Positions 8,284 to 41,287 of a DNA stretch of 64,000 bases are shown here, piece after piece. The notes under the pieces were generated by a model. That model was not told the origin of the DNA. It was given only the letters and a program-made list of their open reading frames with translations, and searched no databases. The position numbers and the translations under genes were made by a program. Source of the stretch: Streptomyces sclerotialus (lineage in GTDB: Bacteria; Actinomycetota; Actinomycetes; Streptomycetales; Streptomycetaceae); the NCBI RefSeq assembly GCF_040907265.1, contig NZ_JBFOHP010000002.1, positions 6,262,001 through 6,326,000 on the forward strand, read 5' to 3'. Position 1 is the first letter of the stretch. The number at the start of each line of letters is the position of its first letter.

Positions 8284-8694
8284 TCAGCCTCGGTACGCCC
8301 GGCCGCCGGTGCCGGCCGGGCGTACCGAGCGCGGGCCGGTCACCTGGGCGCCCAGCGCCTCCACCCGGGCGCGCAGCCCGCGGTCGGCCGTCACGACCAC
8401 GCAGGGCCGTCCGGCGGGCAGCCCGGCGACCAGTTCCACGATGCGGTCGTCGCCGCTGCCGTCGGCCGACTCCACCCGTACGCCCTCGACGCCGGGCACG
8501 CCGCGCGCCGCGCCCTCCACGACGAGCACCAGCTCCACGGGCGGATCGGCGATCCCGGGCAGGCCGCTCCCGGCGTACGCCACGAGTCCGTCGCGCAGCC
8601 GCTCGGCCGCGCCCCGCCGGTCGTGCCACCAGCCGTCGGGCACCGAGCCGACGACGTTGGCGCCGTCGACGATGAGGGTGGTTGTCGCTGTCAT
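8284..8694 (-). CDS. NYN/PIN-like domain protein
   Basis: A 136-residue protein with the Asp-rich pattern of the NYN ribonuclease fold: an N-terminal TTTLIVDGANVVGS strand with the first acidic residue, DDRIVEL in the middle, and VVTADRGLRARVEALGA near the C terminus. Actinobacterial homologues are annotated as NTP pyrophosphohydrolases or NYN proteins. The nuclease role is inference from fold motifs. It is transcribed divergently from the HTH/Clp-N gene, and its start is 100 bp from that gene, so the tandem operators between them could control both. Confidence 0.7.
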   Translation of the reverse strand: MTATTTLIVDGANVVGSVPDGWWHDRRGAAERLRDGLVAYAGSGLPGIADPPVELVLVVEGAARGVPGVEGVRVESADGSGDDRIVELVAGLPAGRPCVVVTADRGLRARVEALGAQVTGPRSVRPAGTGGRAYRG

Positions 8695-8746
8695 GGGTTC
8701 ATCGTGGCACCGATGCGGCGGTATGGGCTGCCGTTACGCACCGATC

Positions 8747-8792
8747 GACAACCCGGGGTTGACGGTAGGGAGATCGTCAACCTATGGTTGAC
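8747..8792. promoter_or_regulatory. Tandem 17-bp operators overlapping a leaderless promoter
   Basis: Two inverted repeats, GACAACCCGGGGTTGAC (8747-8763) and GTCAACCTATGGTTGAC (8776-8792), lie 29 bp apart centre to centre. The right arm of the first supplies the -35 (TTGACG, 8759-8764). The centre of the second supplies the -10 (TATGGT, 8783-8788) after an 18-bp spacer. The start codon begins 6 nt after the -10. A protein bound to both sites would block RNA polymerase. Confidence 0.75.
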
Positions 8793-8794
8793 GC

Positions 8795-9544
8795 ATGGCA
8801 GATTCCGTGGAACCCGTACGCAGCACGCATCCCGTACGCCTCGACGACCTGATCGAGGCCATCAAGAAGGTGCACACCGACGCCCTCGACCAGCTGACCG
8901 ACGCGGTCCTCGCCGCCGACCACCTCGGTGACGTGGCCGACCACCTGATCGGCCACTTCGTGGACCAGGCGCGGCGCTCGGGCGCCTCCTGGACGGAGAT
9001 CGGCAAGAGCATGGGCGTCACCAAGCAGGCGGCCCAGAAGCGCTTCGTCCCGAAGGGTCCCGCGACCTCGGACCTCGACCCGAACGAGGGTTTCGGCCGC
9101 TACACCCCGCGCGCCCGCAACGTGATCGTCAGCGCCCAGAACGAGACCAGGGCGGCCGGGCACGCCGAGATCACGACCGGGCACCTGACGCTCGGCCTCC
9201 TCGCCGAACCGGAGGGGCTCGCCGTGCGCGCCCTGATCGCCCAGGACGTCACGCCCGAGGCCGTGCGGGAGGCGGTCACCGCCGCGCTGCCGCCGGCCGC
9301 CGAGGGCACGCTGCCCGCCCTCATCCCGTTCGACGCCGCGGCGAAGAAGGCCCTGGAGCTGACCTTCCGCGAGGCCCTGCGGCTGGGCCACAACTACGTC
9401 GGCACCGAGCACCTGCTGCTCGCCCTGCTGGAACAGGAGGACGGCGACGGCGTCCTGACCCGGCTCGGGGTCACCAAGGAGGCCACCGAGGCGTGGGTCA
9501 CCGAGGCCCTGGAAGCTCTCATGGCGGCCCGCAAGGCCGAGTGA
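8795..9544 (+). CDS. HTH plus Clp N-terminal (ClpR) domain protein, probable autoregulator
   Basis: A 249-residue protein. Residues 1-85 hold a helix-turn-helix-like segment (WTEIGKSMGVTKQAAQKRF) of the kind found in actinobacterial Clp-N regulators. The rest is a Clp repeat domain: an RARNVIVSAQNE segment, ITTGHLTLGLLAEPEGLA, and a second repeat with NYVGTEHLLLALLEQEDG, as in the substrate-recruiting N domain of ClpA/ClpC. There is no AAA ATPase module, so it cannot unfold proteins itself. It may recruit regulators to ClpC, or sense unfolded protein and repress transcription. No Shine-Dalgarno site is present, and the promoter geometry predicts a leaderless mRNA under the two tandem operators. 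Confidence 0.8.
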   Translation: MADSVEPVRSTHPVRLDDLIEAIKKVHTDALDQLTDAVLAADHLGDVADHLIGHFVDQARRSGASWTEIGKSMGVTKQAAQKRFVPKGPATSDLDPNEGFGRYTPRARNVIVSAQNETRAAGHAEITTGHLTLGLLAEPEGLAVRALIAQDVTPEAVREAVTAALPPAAEGTLPALIPFDAAAKKALELTFREALRLGHNYVGTEHLLLALLEQEDGDGVLTRLGVTKEATEAWVTEALEALMAARKAE

Positions 9545-29738: not shown

Positions 29739-30479
29739 ATGGACGACATGACTGACGCCACCCCTGGGCCCGCGCCCGAGAAGACCCCGAACGCCGGCAA
29801 GAAGGCGAAGGACCTGAACGAGGTCATCCGCTACACCCTCTGGTCGGTGTTCAAGCTGCGTGCCGCCCTCCCGGAGGACCGCAGCGGCTACGCCGAAGAG
29901 GTCGACGAGCTGTTCGAGCAGCTCGCCGCCAAGGACGTCGTGGTCCGCGGCACGTACGACGTGTCCGGTCTGCGCGCCGACGCCGACGTGATGATCTGGT
30001 GGCACTCGGAGAGCTCGGACGCGCTCCAGGAGGCGTACAACCTCTTCCGCCGCACCAAGCTCGGCCGTGCCCTGGAGCCGGTCTGGTCGAACATGGCGCT
30101 GCACCGCCCCGCCGAGTTCAACAAGTCGCACATCCCGGCCTTCCTGGCCGACGAGCAGGCGCGTGACTACGTCAGCGTCTACCCGTTCGTGCGCTCGTAC
30201 GACTGGTACCTCCTGCCCGACGAGGACCGCCGCCGGATGCTCGCGGACCACGGCAAGATGGCCCGCGGCTTCCCGGACGTGCGCGCCAACACCGTGCCGT
30301 CCTTCTCGCTCGGCGACTACGAGTGGATCCTCGCCTTCGAGGCCGACGAGCTGTACCGCATCGTCGACCTCATGCGTCACCTGCGCGGCTCCGAGGCGCG
30401 GCTGCACGTCCGCGAGGAGGTCCCGTTCTACACCGGCCGCCGCAAGCCGGTGTCGGAGCTGGTGGCCGGTCTGGCCTGA
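29739..30479 (+). CDS. hemQ: Coproheme decarboxylase (HemQ, chlorite-dismutase family)
   Basis: Last enzyme of the coproporphyrin heme pathway: converts iron-coproporphyrin III to protoheme with H2O2. It has 246 residues. Diagnostic segments are [14 protein letters not shown] at the N terminus, [16 protein letters not shown], the catalytic Tyr region [14 protein letters not shown], the heme-ligand His in [14 protein letters not shown], and [16 protein letters not shown]. The ATG lies 2 nt after the hemY stop codon; a second in-frame ATG 9 nt later (29748) is equally possible. Coupling with hemY is typical of Actinobacteria. Confidence 0.95.
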
Positions 30480-32307: not shown

Positions 32308-33315
32308 CTACCCGTGGGACGAGCCGGCGCGGCCTTCGGAGCCGGCGCGCCCCCCGGAGCCGGCGCGGCCCGCAGGATTCTCACGGCTCCCGGGGCCGCC
32401 TACTCCCTCCCGCTCGCCGCGGCCCTCACGCCCTTGGCCGTTCTCACGCCCTTGGCCGTTCTCACGGCCCGCGCCGTTCCCACGTCCGTCGCCGTTCCCG
32501 CGGCCGTCACCCTCCCCACGTCCGTTGCCCTCCCCGCGGTCGGAGGCCTGTGGCGGAGGTGCCGAGGCGGCCGGCGGCAGGGGGTACGTCGCGGACGGCG
32601 TGGCGGCCTCGGGCACTGCGGGCGGCGCCGACGGCGCGGCGGCGGGCGGCGGCGGTACGGGGGCGGGCGGTGCGGGCGTGGGCGCGGCCGGCGGCGTCGG
32701 CGAGCCGGTGGCCTGCGTGTCCCGGGCGATGCTGTCGAAGTCCACCACGCCGGTGCGTTCCAGCACGGTGATGTGGTCGAGCACGGTCGTGTTGGCGGCG
32801 TCCGCCAGCCCGCGGACCAGCGAGTTGCGGGTGGTCGCACGGACCTGGGCGACGACCGTGAAGACCTTGCCGTGGGCCAGCCGCAGGATGTTGGCGAACT
32901 TCCGGTCGTACTCGGTGCCGCGCACCGCCTCCAGCTCCGAGAGCCAGCCCCGCTGCTGGGCGTTGGGCTGGTTGGGCAGGTCGACATCGAGCTGCGCTGC
33001 CACCTGCCGTACGTTCCGGTCGAGTTCCTCGTGGCCGGTCACGAGGTGCTCGCCCGCGGTCCGTACGGCCTTGGTGGTGCCGCGTTCCTGCGCCTGCTGT
33101 CCGGCGGGCAGCTCCCACAGCCCGGCCAGCCGGACCTTGTTGACGAAGTCGCGGTCGAGGGCGGACAGCGGGCCGAAGCGGGTGGCCACGGTGCCCGCGT
33201 TGATGTCGGTGCCGGCCGCCGACAGTCCGGCGAAGGACAGGATGGGGAAGAGCAGTGCGGCTGCCGTCGCGACGAGTGCGGCGACGACGAGACCTGTTCC
33301 GGTGACGGATCGCAT
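32308..33315 (-). CDS. DUF4142 membrane protein with Gly/Arg/Glu/Asn-rich repetitive tail
   Basis: A 335-residue protein. The ATG is preceded by GGAGG. A hydrophobic N-terminal segment (residues 8-35) is a signal anchor. Residues 40-200 match DUF4142 (LDRDFVNKVRLAGLWELPAGQQA, RTAGEHLVTGHEELDRNVRQVA, LDHITVLERTG), a ferritin-like helical fold. A Pro/Ala linker follows, then about 90 residues of low complexity made of GRGNGDGR and GRENGQGR units, coded by imperfect 18-bp DNA repeats at roughly 32390-32540. The tail is highly charged and probably extracellular. The function is unknown; DUF4142 proteins are often envelope-located. Confidence 0.85.
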   Translation of the reverse strand: MRSVTGTGLVVAALVATAAALLFPILSFAGLSAAGTDINAGTVATRFGPLSALDRDFVNKVRLAGLWELPAGQQAQERGTTKAVRTAGEHLVTGHEELDRNVRQVAAQLDVDLPNQPNAQQRGWLSELEAVRGTEYDRKFANILRLAHGKVFTVVAQVRATTRNSLVRGLADAANTTVLDHITVLERTGVVDFDSIARDTQATGSPTPPAAPTPAPPAPVPPPPAAAPSAPPAVPEAATPSATYPLPPAASAPPPQASDRGEGNGRGEGDGRGNGDGRGNGAGRENGQGRENGQGREGRGEREGVGGPGSRENPAGRAGSGGRAGSEGRAGSSHG

Positions 33316-33618: not shown

Positions 33619-34635
33619 TCAGCCGCTGGAGCCCCCGCAGGACGAGCCACCGGAGGAGGAGCCGCCGCCGCACGAGGAGCCGCCCGTCCCGCTGCCCGAG
33701 GCGGAGCCGCCGCACGAAGAGCCGCCGCAGCCCGTACCGCCCCCGGAGGAGCCGCACCACATCCCGCCGGTGTCTCCCGCGGCGCTCCAGCCCGTTCCCG
33801 CCCCTGTTCCGGACGAGGCCACCGCGGCGGCGGCCGCGGTCCCTGCAGCGGCCCGCTGTGCCTCCAGCAGGTACTCGCGCAGCACCTGGTCCGTCAGCAG
33901 CGCCGCACCCCCGACGGCCACGGCGAGCGCGGCGGGCCGGCCCGCCGGGCCGGCGGCGGCCGCCCTGTTCGCGGTGCGGAAGCGCTTCAGGGCGCGCTTC
34001 CCGGTCTTCGTGATGCGGCGGCGTACGGCATTCCGGCACAGCGTGCCGATGAAGATCCCGGCGAATACCGCGGGCGTCACCTTGAGCACGAACGGCAGGT
34101 TCTGCGGGTACTGCGGAGCACCGTCGTCCAGCGCGCCGGTCACCGACTGGAAGATGCCGAGGAAGAAGACGCCCATGCACGCGCCGATCTGCAGCCGGGC
34201 CAGCTGCCGCCACGGCCGGCCGGCCTCCGGGCGGCGCAGCAGACCGCGGTCCGCCAGCCGGTCGCCGATCTGCTGGACGGCCGCGCTGCGCATGACCGTG
34301 GGGCGCAGCCGCGCCAGTGAGCCGCCCGGCGTCCGCGCGAGCGCTTCCAGGACCGCGGACTCGACCGGGTCGTGCGAGACGGCCGGGCGGCGCGCGGTGA
34401 CCGTGCCGGGGCCGCCGATCACCAGCCTGCCGTCGCCATGCATCCCGGCGATCGCCGCGTCGGCGACCCGGCCGGGACCGCCGGCGAGAAAGGCGTTCTC
34501 CCAGAGGTCGTGCGAGGGCACGTCGACGAGCACCGTCCGGGGGGACGGCGTGGCGCGGCGGGTGTGGACCGTACCGGCGATGAGCACCACTGAGGAGGCG
34601 GCGACGGCCAGGTACACCAACTGCGCGAAGGACAA
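33619..34635 (-). CDS. TIGR04222 membrane protein with Cys/Gly/Ser-rich C-terminal tail
   Basis: A 338-residue protein. The first start with a ribosome site is TTG, 8 nt after GGGAGG; that site overlaps the upstream gene's stop, and no ATG or GTG is better placed. It has an N-terminal membrane helix, a cytoplasmic region with DLWENAFLAGGPGRVADAAIAGMHGDGRLVIGG (TIGR04222 signature), and two more hydrophobic segments (about residues 150-210). The final 48 residues contain five Cys in Gly/Ser context, with SSCGG repeated three times. This tail resembles a substrate region for Cys-modifying enzymes. It is the last gene of an operon with an MNIO (DUF692) enzyme. Confidence 0.8.
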   Translation of the reverse strand: MSFAQLVYLAVAASSVVLIAGTVHTRRATPSPRTVLVDVPSHDLWENAFLAGGPGRVADAAIAGMHGDGRLVIGGPGTVTARRPAVSHDPVESAVLEALARTPGGSLARLRPTVMRSAAVQQIGDRLADRGLLRRPEAGRPWRQLARLQIGACMGVFFLGIFQSVTGALDDGAPQYPQNLPFVLKVTPAVFAGIFIGTLCRNAVRRRITKTGKRALKRFRTANRAAAAGPAGRPAALAVAVGGAALLTDQVLREYLLEAQRAAAGTAAAAAVASSGTGAGTGWSAAGDTGGMWCGSSGGGTGCGGSSCGGSASGSGTGGSSCGGGSSSGGSSCGGSSG

Positions 34636-34640
34636 CGTGA

Positions 34641-35225
34641 TTACCTCCCACTCCGGGGTCTGTCGACATACTCCACCCGCGAGGCACCTTCCGGCACGTT
34701 CAGGGGCCCGCTCCGGCCGCCGCCCGCCGCGCCGCCCCCGGGCCGGGGCAGCAGGCCGGTGAGCGTGCGGGCCAGCCGGGCCAGCCGCGCGGCGGGACGG
34801 TCCGACGGCGGGGTGGGGCCCGCGCGCTCGCGCCACCACTGTGTCAGCTCCCGCCGCGCGGCGGGATGCGCCGGCAGGCCGAGGGCGAGCAGATGACCGG
34901 CGAAGTCCAGCGCGTCGCGGCGGTGGCCGCCGCGCATCGGCCGGCCCTGCGCGTAGTCCAGGAAGGCGGTGCGGTAGTCCGCTCCGAGTATGCCGGGCAG
35001 CTCCGGCGCCACCGCGGCGACCACGTCAGCGCGCTTGCCGGCCAGCGCGCGCCGCTGCACGGACAGCCGCTCGGTGTCGAACCCCGCCGGGTCGGGTCCG
35101 TCCGCCACCAGCGCCGCCAGCAGCTCTTCCTGTGCCGCGGCCAGCCGCAGCCGCGCCGCCTCGGTGCCTTCAGGAGCGGGTGTTCCCCGCTCGCCGGGCC
35201 GCATCTCAGGCAGTCGCTCGGGCAT
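34641..35225 (-). CDS. Uncharacterised protein encoded between MNIO and TIGR04222 genes
   Basis: A 194-residue soluble protein, helical in the middle ([84 protein letters not shown]), with an Arg/Pro/Gly-rich C terminus. No family was recognised with certainty. The ATG is preceded by GGAGG at 9 nt; it overlaps the MNIO gene by 20 nt and ends 5 nt before the TTG start of the TIGR04222 gene. MNIO enzymes generally need a partner protein that binds the peptide substrate (MbnC, TglI), and this is the candidate partner here by position. Confidence 0.75.
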
Positions 35226-36117
35226 GGGGCGCGGCCTCCTTCACGACGGCTCGGACGGCGTCCAGTTCGGCGGCGAGTTCGTCCACGGGAGGGAAGTTCT
35301 CGTCGCGCTCCAGGAGGACGCCCGGCGGACTGACGCGGGCGCACAGCTCGGCCAGTACGTCCAGGACGGGCTGCGTCACGGGGTGCGCGTGGCTGTCGTG
35401 CCACACCCCGTCCCGTTCGAACCCGCCCGCGACGTGCACGTACGCGATGGCCTCGACGGGCAGCGCGTCCAGGGCGGCCGCCGGGTCCTCGCCCCGGTTC
35501 ACCCGGTTGGTGTGCAGGTTCGCCACGTCGATGAGGAGCCGCACGCCGGTCCGCTCGACGAGTTCGGCGAGGAACTGTCCTTCGGTGAGCTCCTCGCCGG
35601 GCCAGTTGACGAGCGCCGCGATGTTCTCCAGGGCGAGCGGGACCGGCAGCGCTTCCTGCGCGATGCGTACGTTCTCGCACAGCACGTCCAGTGCGTCGTA
35701 CGTCCGGGGCACGGGCAGCAGGTGCCCCGCCTCCATGCGCGGCCCGCCGGTCAGCTCGCCGCCGGCCCGTACGAAGGCGATGTGCTCGGTGACGAGAGGC
35801 GCGGCGAGGGCTTCGGCGCGCTCGGCCAGCGCGGCGAGCCGCCCGGCGTCCGGCCGCTCGGCGCCGCCCAGCCCGAGCGAGACGCCGTGCGGGACGACGG
35901 TGGTGCCCCGCGCGCGCAGCGCTTCGAGAGCGGGCGGGAGATGGCCGGGGCAGACGTTCTCCGCGACGACCTCGACCCAGTCGATGCCGGGCAGGCCCGC
36001 GATCCCGTCGGCGATCTCGGGCCGCCATCCGATACCGGTGCCCAGCCGGACCCGGTTCTCCCGGCGGGCCCGCCGCTCCCGGTCTTCCGTATGCCCGGTA
36101 CGCCCTGGCTGCTCCAT
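35206..36117 (-). CDS. MNIO (DUF692) multinuclear non-heme iron oxidative enzyme
   Basis: A 303-residue TIM-barrel protein of the DUF692/MNIO family (methanobactin MbnB, TglH). Conserved metal-binding segments are [55 protein letters not shown] and YVHVAGGF with HDSHAHPV. The ATG follows a G-rich site; a further in-frame ATG at 36159 would add 14 residues. MNIO enzymes oxidatively rearrange Cys (or other) residues in peptides. It is the first gene of a compact three-gene operon ending in a Cys-rich membrane protein, which makes that protein the obvious substrate candidate. Confidence 0.9.
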
Positions 36118-36311: not shown

Positions 36312-36956
36312 TCACCGCCGGGTGAACTCCGGCTGGGTCACCATGTCGACCCGGGTCGCGCGCCCGAGAAGGGCCACCTCCCGGAACTGCCACAGCAGCG
36401 CACCGGTCGGCGCGTGGATCACCATCCCCGGGCGCAGCGGCATCTGGAGCAGCGGTCCGCCGTCCGGAGCCGTGGCCCACCGCGGCAGGTCCGGCTTCAT
36501 CAGCCGCCGCAGCGGTACGTGGTGCAGCGACTGGACCTCCTTCGGGTCGGGCCGCGGCCGTACGGGTCCGCGGGGGATCACGACCAGCGGCGTGATGACG
36601 AACCCGGAGTCGGTACGGAAGTCGTCCAGCAGCCCGGCGACCTCCCCGGGGCCGGCCTCGACGGCGGTCTCCTCGGCCAGTTCCCGCAGCGCAGCCGTCT
36701 CCGCCGTCTCCGCCTCGTCCAGGCGGCCGCCCGGGAGTGCCCACTGTCCGGCGTTGCGGCCGCGTGGCGCCCGCTTGATGACCAGGACGTGTGGTTCGTC
36801 GCGGAACGGGACCACGGTGAGGCAGACGGCGGCGCTGCGTACGCCCTCCGGTACGGGCACCTCGCGCCGCGCGAACGCCGCCAGGTTGGCGCGCAGCGCG
36901 GCTTCGAGCCGGGACGGATCCGCGAGGTCCGCTTCCTTCAACGTCGACATCGGCAT
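36312..36956 (-). CDS. Nudix hydrolase, CoA-pyrophosphatase-like
   Basis: A 214-residue Nudix protein with the complete box [24 protein letters not shown] and an upstream [23 protein letters not shown] typical of CoA pyrophosphatases. The C-terminal segment [16 protein letters not shown] is also CoA-pyrophosphatase-like. It probably cleaves CoA or related nucleotide diphosphates. Start candidates are ATG 36956, ATG 36950 and GTG 36962, none with a ribosome site. It is divergent from the NERD-domain gene. Confidence 0.8.
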
Positions 36957-37132
36957 CGTCACGATGTACCACGCCCGGACGCCCGTTCCCACCCCTCTGT
37001 GGACGTTCACCGGCCCCTTCTGGCGTAGCCGCACTCGCTCTTGCCCCGCCCCGCACGCGCCTGGTCCCATGGGTGAGGGGCGGGTCCCGCAGTGCGGCGG
37101 TCTCCCGCCGGAGGCGAGTCCCGCAAGGGGTG

Positions 37133-37825
37133 ATGTCCGTGAAGCTGACACCGGACGACCCCGACCGGCTCTTCCTCCCTCCGGACGACGACCTCGCGCC
37201 GAACCGTCCGGGCGAGATCCTGCGCACCTTCCTCGCCGAACACCCCTTGGACGGCCCCGCGCTCCTCGGCGCCCGGTTGCTCGGCCGCCGCCCCGTGCAG
37301 GACGACTGGCGGCGCCGGCTTGCCGCGGAGAGCGCGGTGGGCGCGGAGCTGGAGCGGCTGGGCCGCGGCGGCTGGCACGTGCTGCACTCCCTGCCGCTGC
37401 CGCCCGGCAGCGAGATCAGCCATCTCCTCATCGGGCCGGGCGGCGTCTTCTGCCTCGCCACGGAGCCGGTACGCGGCGCGCGCGTACGGGCCGACGCCAC
37501 CGACGTGCGCCCGGGGCGCGGCAGGCGCCCGCAGCCGTACGTGCGCAGGGCCCGTCAGCGTGCCGTGCGCGCGACGTACGCGCTGTCCCGCGGCTGCGGC
37601 TTCCCGGTGTCCGTCCGCCCCGTGCTCGTCCTCGTAGGCCCCCGCCACGTCGAACGGCTGCCGGAGCCGCAGGAGGCGGACGCGGCCACCGAGCCGGAGG
37701 TACGCCTCGTGGCCGGCGCGCAGGCGGTCATGGCGCTCGGCGCGCTCGGCGGCGTCCTGGCCCCCGCGACCGTCGAGCGGATCCACACGGTGGCCCGCAA
37801 CCGACGCACGTGGAACGGGCTGTGA
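37133..37825 (+). CDS. NERD (nuclease-related) domain protein
   Basis: A 230-residue protein. The NERD domain spans about residues 60-175, starting at [21 protein letters not shown], with [19 protein letters not shown] (the catalytic-type strand) and a downstream [23 protein letters not shown] domains are related to archaeal Holliday-junction nucleases; activity here is unproven. AAGGGG lies close to the ATG; a GTG at 37139 has better spacing. A small hairpin follows the gene. Confidence 0.8.
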
Positions 37826-37889: not shown

Positions 37890-38672
37890 CTACCGCAGCG
37901 CCGGGTGGTCGGCGACGACCGTGCAGGAACCGGGAGCGATCTCCGTGAAGCCCGCGTCGCGGACGACGGGGAGGCCGCTGCGGGTCAGGTCCGCCCAGTG
38001 GTCCGGATCCGCCGTCCGCACGGACAGCGGGAAGCCCGCCGCCCGCCAGGCGTCCCGCTCGGCCCCGGACAGCTCCCACCAGGCGAGCTGCGCACCGTGG
38101 CCCGCCTGGGCCATCGCCTTGCCCGCCGACATCTCCAGCTCCGGGCTCAGCCACAGCACCGGACCGTCCGGACCGGGCGCGGCCGGCGGCTCCGGGCCGT
38201 CCAGCTCCGTCCCGGAGACCTGGAGCCTGGCCAGCTCCTTGGGCCAGCCGTCCAGCGGCACCGGCGGGAAGACGCGCACCTCGGCGGAGCCGCCGCTGAC
38301 CGTGATGCCGGGCAGTGCCTCGGCGCGGCGCCACTCGGCGCCCCGTGCCCGGCGCACGACCTTGCGGATGCGGGCGTCCTGCCAGTCCCGTACGGCAGCG
38401 GCCCACTCGCCCGCACCCTGCGCACGCGCGTCCGAGAGCAGTGTCAGCACCGCACGCGCGGCCGTCTCCAGCGCGTCCGTACGCGCCGGCGGTGCGGTCT
38501 TCTCCAGGCGGACGACCAGCGGCAGCACGAACTGCGGCGCCGCGTCGCGGTCGGTCTCCGCACGGCGCGGAGCGGCGGACGGCGTCCCGCCGTCCGCCCC
38601 TGCGGGGGTGTCCGGCGCGTCCGGGGTGCCCGGGGTGCTGGTGCTGCTCACGGTGGTCTCGGTGTTGCTCAC
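37890..38672 (-). CDS. Peptidyl-tRNA hydrolase (Pth2-like) domain protein
   Basis: A 260-residue protein starting at GTG. Residues 1-45 are a Thr/Pro/Asp-rich low-complexity extension. The body carries two related halves; the C-terminal part has MSAGKAMAQAGHGAQLAWWELS, the signature of the PTH2 fold (Lys, Ala-rich helix, His), and VVRDAGFTEIAPGSCTVVADHP at the end. Actinobacterial homologues are annotated as peptidyl-tRNA hydrolases. Whether it acts on peptidyl-tRNA or is a PTH2-like protein with another role is not shown by the sequence. It is convergent with the NERD gene. Confidence 0.75.
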   Translation of the reverse strand: MSNTETTVSSTSTPGTPDAPDTPAGADGGTPSAAPRRAETDRDAAPQFVLPLVVRLEKTAPPARTDALETAARAVLTLLSDARAQGAGEWAAAVRDWQDARIRKVVRRARGAEWRRAEALPGITVSGGSAEVRVFPPVPLDGWPKELARLQVSGTELDGPEPPAAPGPDGPVLWLSPELEMSAGKAMAQAGHGAQLAWWELSGAERDAWRAAGFPLSVRTADPDHWADLTRSGLPVVRDAGFTEIAPGSCTVVADHPALR

Positions 38673-41083: not shown

Positions 41084-41287
41084 ATGTCGTCCGCCAGTCA
41101 GTGCCCCGCCCCCGAAGATGCGCCGTCCGCCCCCGAAGCGGAGACGCCCGCCGCCTCCGGGGGAGAGCCGTTCGCCGAGTGCGTCCTGTGCCGTGAGCCC
41201 ACCGAGTACCCGGAGTCCACGCGGGGCGTCGTCCTGTGCCCGCGCTGCGAGTGGCAGGAGGCCCAGCGCACCGCCTGTTCGGGCTGA
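41084..41287 (+). CDS. Small zinc-ribbon protein
   Basis: A 67-residue protein with an acidic/Pro-rich N-terminal half and one treble-clef-like zinc ribbon: CVLC (x about 17) CPRC. A TAGGCT box lies 7 nt before the ATG and no ribosome site is seen, so the transcript is probably leaderless. The gene ends inside its own terminator: the TGA stop lies at the loop of the 16-bp hairpin that follows. The role is unknown; zinc ribbons of this size often bind RNA or protein partners. Confidence 0.75.
   Translation: MSSASQCPAPEDAPSAPEAETPAASGGEPFAECVLCREPTEYPESTRGVVLCPRCEWQEAQRTACSG

Follow-up and report, generated by a model that had tools for sequence, protein, structure and literature searches.

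What does the MNIO enzyme encoded at this Streptomyces sclerotialus locus act upon, and are the cysteines of the membrane protein encoded beside it among its targets? Within the window, the 64,000-nucleotide stretch of genomic DNA analyzed here, an MNIO (DUF692) gene, a gene for a partner protein and a gene for a TIGR04222 membrane protein with a cysteine-bearing tail follow one another on the minus strand. An earlier note on this DNA had taken the membrane-anchored tail for a likely MNIO substrate and had presented this as a distinct use of MNIO chemistry. The novelty does not hold, as subsets of TIGR04222 proteins have already been proposed, as a hypothesis, to be MNIO substrates bearing C-terminal Cys-rich tails (Antoine et al., 2025, PMC12452194), and the window operon is an additional example of these published MNIO-TIGR04222 clusters. 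A TIGR04222 peptide has also been placed in a predicted bacteriocin cluster (PMC5183585). In the available portions of PMC12452194 and PMC5183585, no experiment on a TIGR04222 protein was found.

The three-gene locus and its MNIO enzyme

The MNIO and partner genes overlap by 20 nt, and 5 nt separate the partner stop codon from the TIGR04222 start, bearing out the tight packing described in the earlier note; judged by this spacing, the three genes are probably co-transcribed (Table 1). A genome-wide profile search of the source genome recovered one MNIO match and one TIGR04222 match.

Table 1. Features of the MNIO locus and its surroundings in the window.
Feature	Position	Strand	Basis or remark
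MNIO (DUF692) enzyme, 303 aa	35206..36117	-	PF05114, 268.8 bits (Pfam cut-off 25); ATG 36117, alternative ATG 36159
Partner, 194 aa, SCO6045-like C-terminal domain (PF26136), putatively DUF2063-related	34641..35225	-	ATG 35225; PF26136 annotation; all-helical model, pLDDT 82
TIGR04222 membrane protein, 338 aa, Cys-tailed paralog A	33619..34635	-	Profile 146.8 bits (cut-off 43); TTG start at 34635, GGAGGT ribosome site upstream; model pLDDT 79
Predicted membrane helix 1, residues 6-24	34564..34620	-	Prediction
Soluble domain, residues 44-135, helices and beta hairpin, predicted cytosolic	34231..34506	-	Model; K/R pattern
Predicted membrane helix 2, residues 148-166	34138..34194	-	Prediction and model
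Predicted membrane helix 3, residues 186-204, then K/R-rich stretch	34024..34080	-	Prediction, K/R pattern, model
Ser/Gly-rich C-terminal tail, residues 293-338, five Cys, starting with conserved WC	33622..33759	-	Alignment; pLDDT
Chlorite dismutase-family gene	29739..30479	+	PF06778
DUF4142 protein	32308..33315	-	Secreted by inspection; low-complexity G/E/R/N repeat tail
NUDIX and NERD genes	36312..37825		
PTH2-family protein	37890..38672	-	PF01981
67-aa six-Cys protein	41084..41287	+	Zinc-ribbon-like by eye; no Pfam match

The window MNIO possesses equivalents of all nine iron ligands of TglH (H71, H107, E151, D184, N187, H216, D229, H231 and E258), the positions being taken from the published TglH ligand list (PMC10880893). 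All 94 aligned MNIOs, the window enzyme included, share these nine residues, which are invariant both in enzymes with and in enzymes without a neighboring paralog A, the Cys-tailed form of the TIGR04222 protein. The window enzyme scores below the cut-off of each characterized NCBIfam MNIO equivalog that it matches, the best of these profiles being BufB (NF050167) with 185.5 bits against an equivalog cut-off of 310. Its nearest relatives are the MNIOs of Streptomyces sp. Ru73, S. violens and S. niger. Inspection of the MNIO reveals no export signal, so any oxidation of the tail would be placed on the cytosolic side of the membrane.

The partner protein

The PF26136 annotation of the window partner (P0121) and of its listed relatives, several of which are joined to PF05114, is precomputed; the local Pfam copy returned no PF26136 match, and hence no score accompanies the assignment here. 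The domain is present in all 88 Streptomyces MNIO loci compared and in five of six non-Streptomyces actinobacterial TIGR04222-MNIO loci. It shares an open reading frame with the MNIO in 79 of the 88 and is encoded separately in nine, the window among them; Ru73 and S. niger likewise have two separate genes, and S. violens has a fused one. Weak DUF2063 sequence matches appear in 16 of 35 partner family members (best E 5.6e-6), and the window partner attains 12.5 bits against Pfam DUF2063, the PME-type 1 signature, below the cut-off of 27.2. PME-type 2 partners are characterized by a fold akin to NGO1945 (3dee) or TglI; a Foldseek search with the partner model yields no PDB match at E ≤0.001. 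Judged from its sequence, the partner appears to be a split-off SCO6045-like C-terminal domain and a DUF2063-related MNIO companion, and our reading is a docking domain of the DUF2063 type that lacks a complete recognition domain, which would agree with PME-type 2. A lead on physiology comes from the S. coelicolor gene SCO6045, linked to the partner here through the name of the domain: in wild-type S. coelicolor its reported induction by oxidative stress is 3.0-fold, and a mutant lacking HbpS-SenS-SenR reportedly deregulates such oxidative-stress genes (PMC4991794).

The TIGR04222 protein and the predicted side of its tail

The window TIGR04222 protein matches no Pfam family at E values of 1 or 10 and contains neither DUF2282 nor another bufferin domain. 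Its soluble domain looks winged-helix-like, by inspection only. The five tail cysteines counted in the earlier note are indeed there, at residues 294, 303, 308, 322 and 333, and two further cysteines lie in or near the membrane helices. Among 41 aligned relatives W293 is invariant and C294 nearly so, and pLDDT falls below 50 over most of the tail. Across 52 tails, the frameshifted L129 included, cysteine is followed by Gly, Ser or Ala in 383 of 391 cases (Gly in 236, Ser or Ala in 147).

The distribution of lysine and arginine residues predicts an external N-terminus, an internal soluble domain, a short external loop and an internal K/R-rich stretch past helix 3, leaving the side of the tail to a candidate fourth helix. 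On our membrane-helix score, a home-made approximation based on a hydrophobicity scale, this candidate scores above 3 (unlikely) in 79 of 115 Streptomyces A proteins and below 2 (likely) in 13 of the 115 and in five of five non-Streptomyces members. The window candidate is borderline at 2.9, compared with 2.1 for helix 3 of the same protein; the best segments of two soluble relatives, L034 and L032, score 2.4 and 6.1. At the corresponding position the window model contains an 8-residue helix; membranes are not modeled by AlphaFold. Since helix 4 is not predicted in most of the Streptomyces A proteins tested, their tails may face the cytosol, which renders doubtful the envelope placement assumed in the earlier note and runs against the published periplasmic placement of TIGR04222 tails, derived from AlphaFold models and predicted topology (PMC12452194).

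Association of paralog A with MNIO enzymes

Among 396 Actinomycetota genomes, TIGR04222 exceeded its cut-off in at least 16 (with up to seven candidates per genome scored, misses are possible), MNIO in 20 and both in 15, the distance between the two matches being at most about 2.1 kb in every one of the 15. The sixteenth TIGR04222 genome (G028, 960 contigs) gave no MNIO match. Pairing across the phylum, which the earlier note had suggested searching for, thus occurs more often than by chance. In the published survey, one third of TIGR04222 genomes are without an MNIO (PMC12452194).

Within Streptomyces, an MNIO was found in 150 of 159 genomes and a TIGR04222 match in at least 138, with up to 16 candidates per genome scored. 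HMMs built in this analysis distinguish two TIGR04222 paralogs: A, with a Ser/Gly tail containing cysteine, and B, about 260 aa long and tailless. The 88 loci compared, the window included, comprise 77 from an even genus sample and 11 from the phylum sample. The 77 were taken in handle order (G396-G485) from the 150 MNIO genomes, passing over those whose contigs were short or whose place was not clear; together with eight genomes fetched with the phylum sample they make up the 85 genomes classified, and three from the phylum sample only (G334, G352 and G369) complete the 88. L135-L137 are not MNIO loci and lie outside this set. One candidate for a Cys-tailed paralog A, L129 (G480), was rejected as a frameshifted B; without it paralog A is present or absent in 50 and 38 loci (49 and 36 genomes), with it in 51 and 37 loci (50 and 35 genomes).

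Paralog A is found in 50 of the 88 loci, alone in 23 and together with B in 27; 32 loci have only B and six neither. At least three tail cysteines are present in 50 of 51 A proteins, the exception, L128, closely related to the window locus, ending after WCGSGS, and no cysteine follows the domain in 59 of 60 B proteins, the exception being the frameshifted B. With L129 counted, all 51 loci have the Cys-tailed gene on the same strand as the MNIO, and in 48 of them it lies downstream. By profile search, paralog A is absent from all nine MNIO-less Streptomyces genomes, some of them incomplete assemblies; two of these (G441 and G494) contain B, and six others show no TIGR04222 match with all candidates scored. 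Presence of A in 49 of 85 MNIO genomes versus none of nine MNIO-less genomes corresponds to a Fisher p of 0.0008 with kinship ignored. In G445, A adjoins the MNIO (L100) and B stands alone elsewhere (L137). Paralog A therefore goes with the MNIO: it adjoins the enzyme gene in 50 of 88 loci, is missing from the MNIO-less genomes and sits with the enzyme in G445.

A strict tie between Cys tail and MNIO was rejected, as MNIO-less G491 (95% complete, 1420 contigs) encodes a divergent TIGR04222 protein with three cysteines in a short S/G tail. Frequent TIGR04222 genes without an MNIO had been named in the earlier note as evidence against its proposal; such genes do occur, chiefly as the Cys-less B of G441 and G494, with the three-Cys G491 protein besides. 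Divergent three-Cys TIGR04222 membrane proteins of this kind are encoded at L337 1438-2373 (G491) and at L171 5321-6229 (G404).

Of the closest relatives of the window locus, Ru73 (L257) has a frameshifted tail, S. violens (L258) a tail cut to one cysteine and S. niger (L259) a tail with five; the damage in Ru73 and S. violens reflects either true loss or assembly trouble in repeats. The MNIO is intact beside the frameshifted Ru73 tail and beside the one-Cys tails of L128, whose contig is that of S. violens L258, and of L254.

MNIO loci without paralog A and small soluble relatives

In 38 of the 88 loci the MNIO, its nine ligands kept, has no neighboring paralog A. On an MNIO tree built by a quick method, with weak support on 47 of 91 inner branches, these loci fall mainly into one group of 36 that encloses the A-bearing L132, with L075 and L129 elsewhere, and four changes between presence and absence of A are needed. 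Of 20 further loci 16 were complete, seven with A (counting L254, with a nine-residue, one-Cys tail, and L249, which runs into a contig end) and nine without, and the state of all 16 was predicted by the nearest MNIO relative. A set of 80 named loci, in part from genomes already sampled, includes 66 complete ones: 33 scored as A-bearing (among them L257, whose tail is frameshifted, and the one-Cys B of L318), 27 with B only and six with neither. Because 38 of the 88 loci lack A and yet keep an intact MNIO, the tail cannot be the only substrate, and the enzyme is probably retained for another role or substrate too. The earlier view of the tail as the likely MNIO substrate thus gains from the way paralog A tracks the enzyme and loses from these 38 loci.

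The whole-genome search for paralog A took in 37 of the 38 genomes without A beside the MNIO, and G480 was searched with TIGR04222 instead. Small TIGR04222 relatives without membrane helices fall into two groups. S1 proteins give strong matches (E <1e-30) in 23 of the 159 Streptomyces genomes, and 14 others show weaker ones; in L034, L035 and L172 they adjoin a protein taken for glyoxylate carboligase. Strong S1 matches occur in 13 of the 36 classified genomes without A, where they lie far from the MNIO, versus none of the 49 with A (kinship ignored); the other 23 genomes without A gave no strong match, and weaker S1-like matches appear in eight genomes with A. Between one and four cysteines lie within the last 60 residues of 19 of the 23 strong S1 members, and five of seven weaker members read contain none. 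Twelve genomes contain S2 relatives that match strongly (E 2e-24 or better), namely G161 and G471 without A, nine with A and the unclassified G515, and nine of the 12 tails have a cysteine. Neither S1 nor S2 proper was found in the MNIO-less Streptomyces genomes. G404, without A, encodes a TIGR04222 membrane member with three tail cysteines 3.5 Mb from its MNIO. Comparison of locus neighborhoods revealed no Cys-rich neighbor gene that marks loci without A. On sequence grounds the small soluble relatives are candidate second substrates, a lead and not an answer.

Genomic neighborhood

A peptidyl-tRNA-hydrolase-like neighbor of MNIO clusters has been termed adjamnio-II (PMC12452194), and the PTH2-family protein upstream of the window operon is probably its counterpart. 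Of the 51 loci with a Cys tail (L129 counted as tailed), 31 have PTH2 close to the MNIO, as do 30 of the 37 without one; being common in both, it looks like synteny. NUDIX and NERD genes stand between MNIO and PTH2 in the window, both also common to L128 and L257-L259, and NERD occurs without NUDIX in L087, L098 and others. Relatives of the DUF4142 protein often occupy the paralog A position in loci without A, and relatives of the 67-aa six-Cys protein are found in 51 of 88 loci. In L057 (G369), a second, divergent MNIO (8288-9187) has a 247-aa seven-Cys protein on one side and a 1047-aa protein on the other and is perhaps part of a different RiPP cluster.

An amine-oxidase-family gene adjoins the chlorite dismutase-family gene, which we take to be HemQ, and genes of these two families are syntenic with the MNIO locus in 81 of 88 Streptomyces loci. 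Their proximity suggests a connection of the operon with heme or redox stress no less than with copper.

Discussion

We propose that the MNIO and the DUF2063-like partner form one holoenzyme, usually a single polypeptide and here encoded by two overlapping genes, that would oxidize some or all of the cysteines in the Ser/Gly-rich tail of the TIGR04222 protein at the cytosolic side and would have other substrates besides. We give the oxidation of tail cysteines by this holoenzyme a probability of roughly 0.5. The chemistry is modeled on the bufferin and EGKCG systems; by the same analogy the oxidized tail could present a series of soft metal ligands, tethered to the membrane, that would buffer copper or a comparable metal. 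In a wider form of the proposal, which we regard as unlikely, one holoenzyme would serve membrane and soluble TIGR04222/DUF2207-like scaffolds alike, its oxidation of tail cysteines at the cytosolic face yielding intracellular, protein-anchored thiooxazole-like metal buffers instead of secreted peptides; a large Streptomyces clade would have lost the membrane substrate, and small soluble Cys-tailed relatives encoded elsewhere would have taken over in part.

A tail at the outer face, acting as an envelope metal trap and compatible with modification, is possible although we lean against it: the published periplasmic placement (PMC12452194) and the sufficiently hydrophobic helix 4 of all five non-Streptomyces and 13 of 115 Streptomyces members speak for it, but 79 of 115 Streptomyces A proteins score above 3, the window's 2.9 falls between the scores of two soluble relatives, and the window model offers only its 8-residue helix. 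It is rather unlikely, in our judgment, that the main substrate lies elsewhere and that the TIGR04222 protein is a membrane companion of the enzyme for docking, transport or metal hand-over. The intact enzyme in the clade of 36 MNIOs without A, the confinement, among the classified genomes, of strong S1 proteins, mostly with C-terminal cysteines, to those without A, and the mention of a DUF692 enzyme with a transmembrane partner (PMC10880893) would fit such a role. Yet the tail cysteines of paralog A go with the MNIO, the enzyme already has its partner domain, most genomes without A lack a strong S1, weaker S1-like proteins and most S2 proteins coexist with A, and no Cys-rich neighbor gene sets the loci without A apart.

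We consider it improbable that the tail cysteines act unmodified, by zinc or copper binding or as disulfides, beside an MNIO that is there through inherited synteny. Much of the neighborhood is syntenic with or without paralog A, and the fragmented, MNIO-less G491 assembly has its divergent Cys-tailed relative; against this, A is absent from nine MNIO-less genomes, two of which keep B, and G445 has A with its MNIO apart from that synteny. Should the tail be modified by the holoenzyme, as we propose, MNIO chemistry would not be confined to peptides but would also serve to modify, post-translationally, membrane proteins that stay full-length and uncleaved, and the topology of the tail would decide between an envelope trap and an internal buffer. 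The A/B pair, the A-less genomes that keep the enzyme and the soluble Cys-tailed relatives provide natural controls for the substrate question.

Relation to known systems

The TIGR04222 profile weakly matches DUF2207 membrane proteins (PF09972/PF20990). Weak TIGR04222 matches in other actinobacteria proved to be DUF2207 proteins in five of five scanned, and non-Streptomyces TIGR04222 members are colinear with the C-terminal part of DUF2207, their profile aligning with DUF2207_C (PF20990) at 91% probability (pairwise E 9e-7). The same comparison gave 58% for pooled TIGR04222, 2.6% for Streptomyces A, which alone has no significant alignment, and 0.5% for B, and no PF20990 match was found in the source genome. 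DUF2207 proteins share the S/G-rich tails but differ in an extra N-terminal domain and in the lack of cysteine in all 11 tails that could be read.

The clusters described by Antoine et al. contain the same three components as the window operon. PME-type 2 partner genes were reported there in at least 10% of TIGR04222 clusters, many clusters appearing partnerless (PMC12452194), whereas the partner domain is found here in every Streptomyces MNIO locus compared, mostly fused to the enzyme; the predicted cytosolic side of most Streptomyces tails likewise departs from the periplasmic placement given there. Bufferin, EGKCG, oxazolin and fontiphorin systems combine an MNIO with a PME-type 1 partner. 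Bufferin-type precursors carry Sec signal peptides, and their partners have the DUF2063 signature and an RRE-type domain (PMC12452194); the window MNIO, unlike bufferin-type enzymes, stays under the equivalog cut-offs. It nevertheless finds its best characterized profile in BufB, and the cysteines of EGKCG motifs, which are converted to 5-thiooxazole with a reported mass change of 8 Da for two repeats (PMC13097082), are followed by glycine, as are most cysteines of the TIGR04222 tails.
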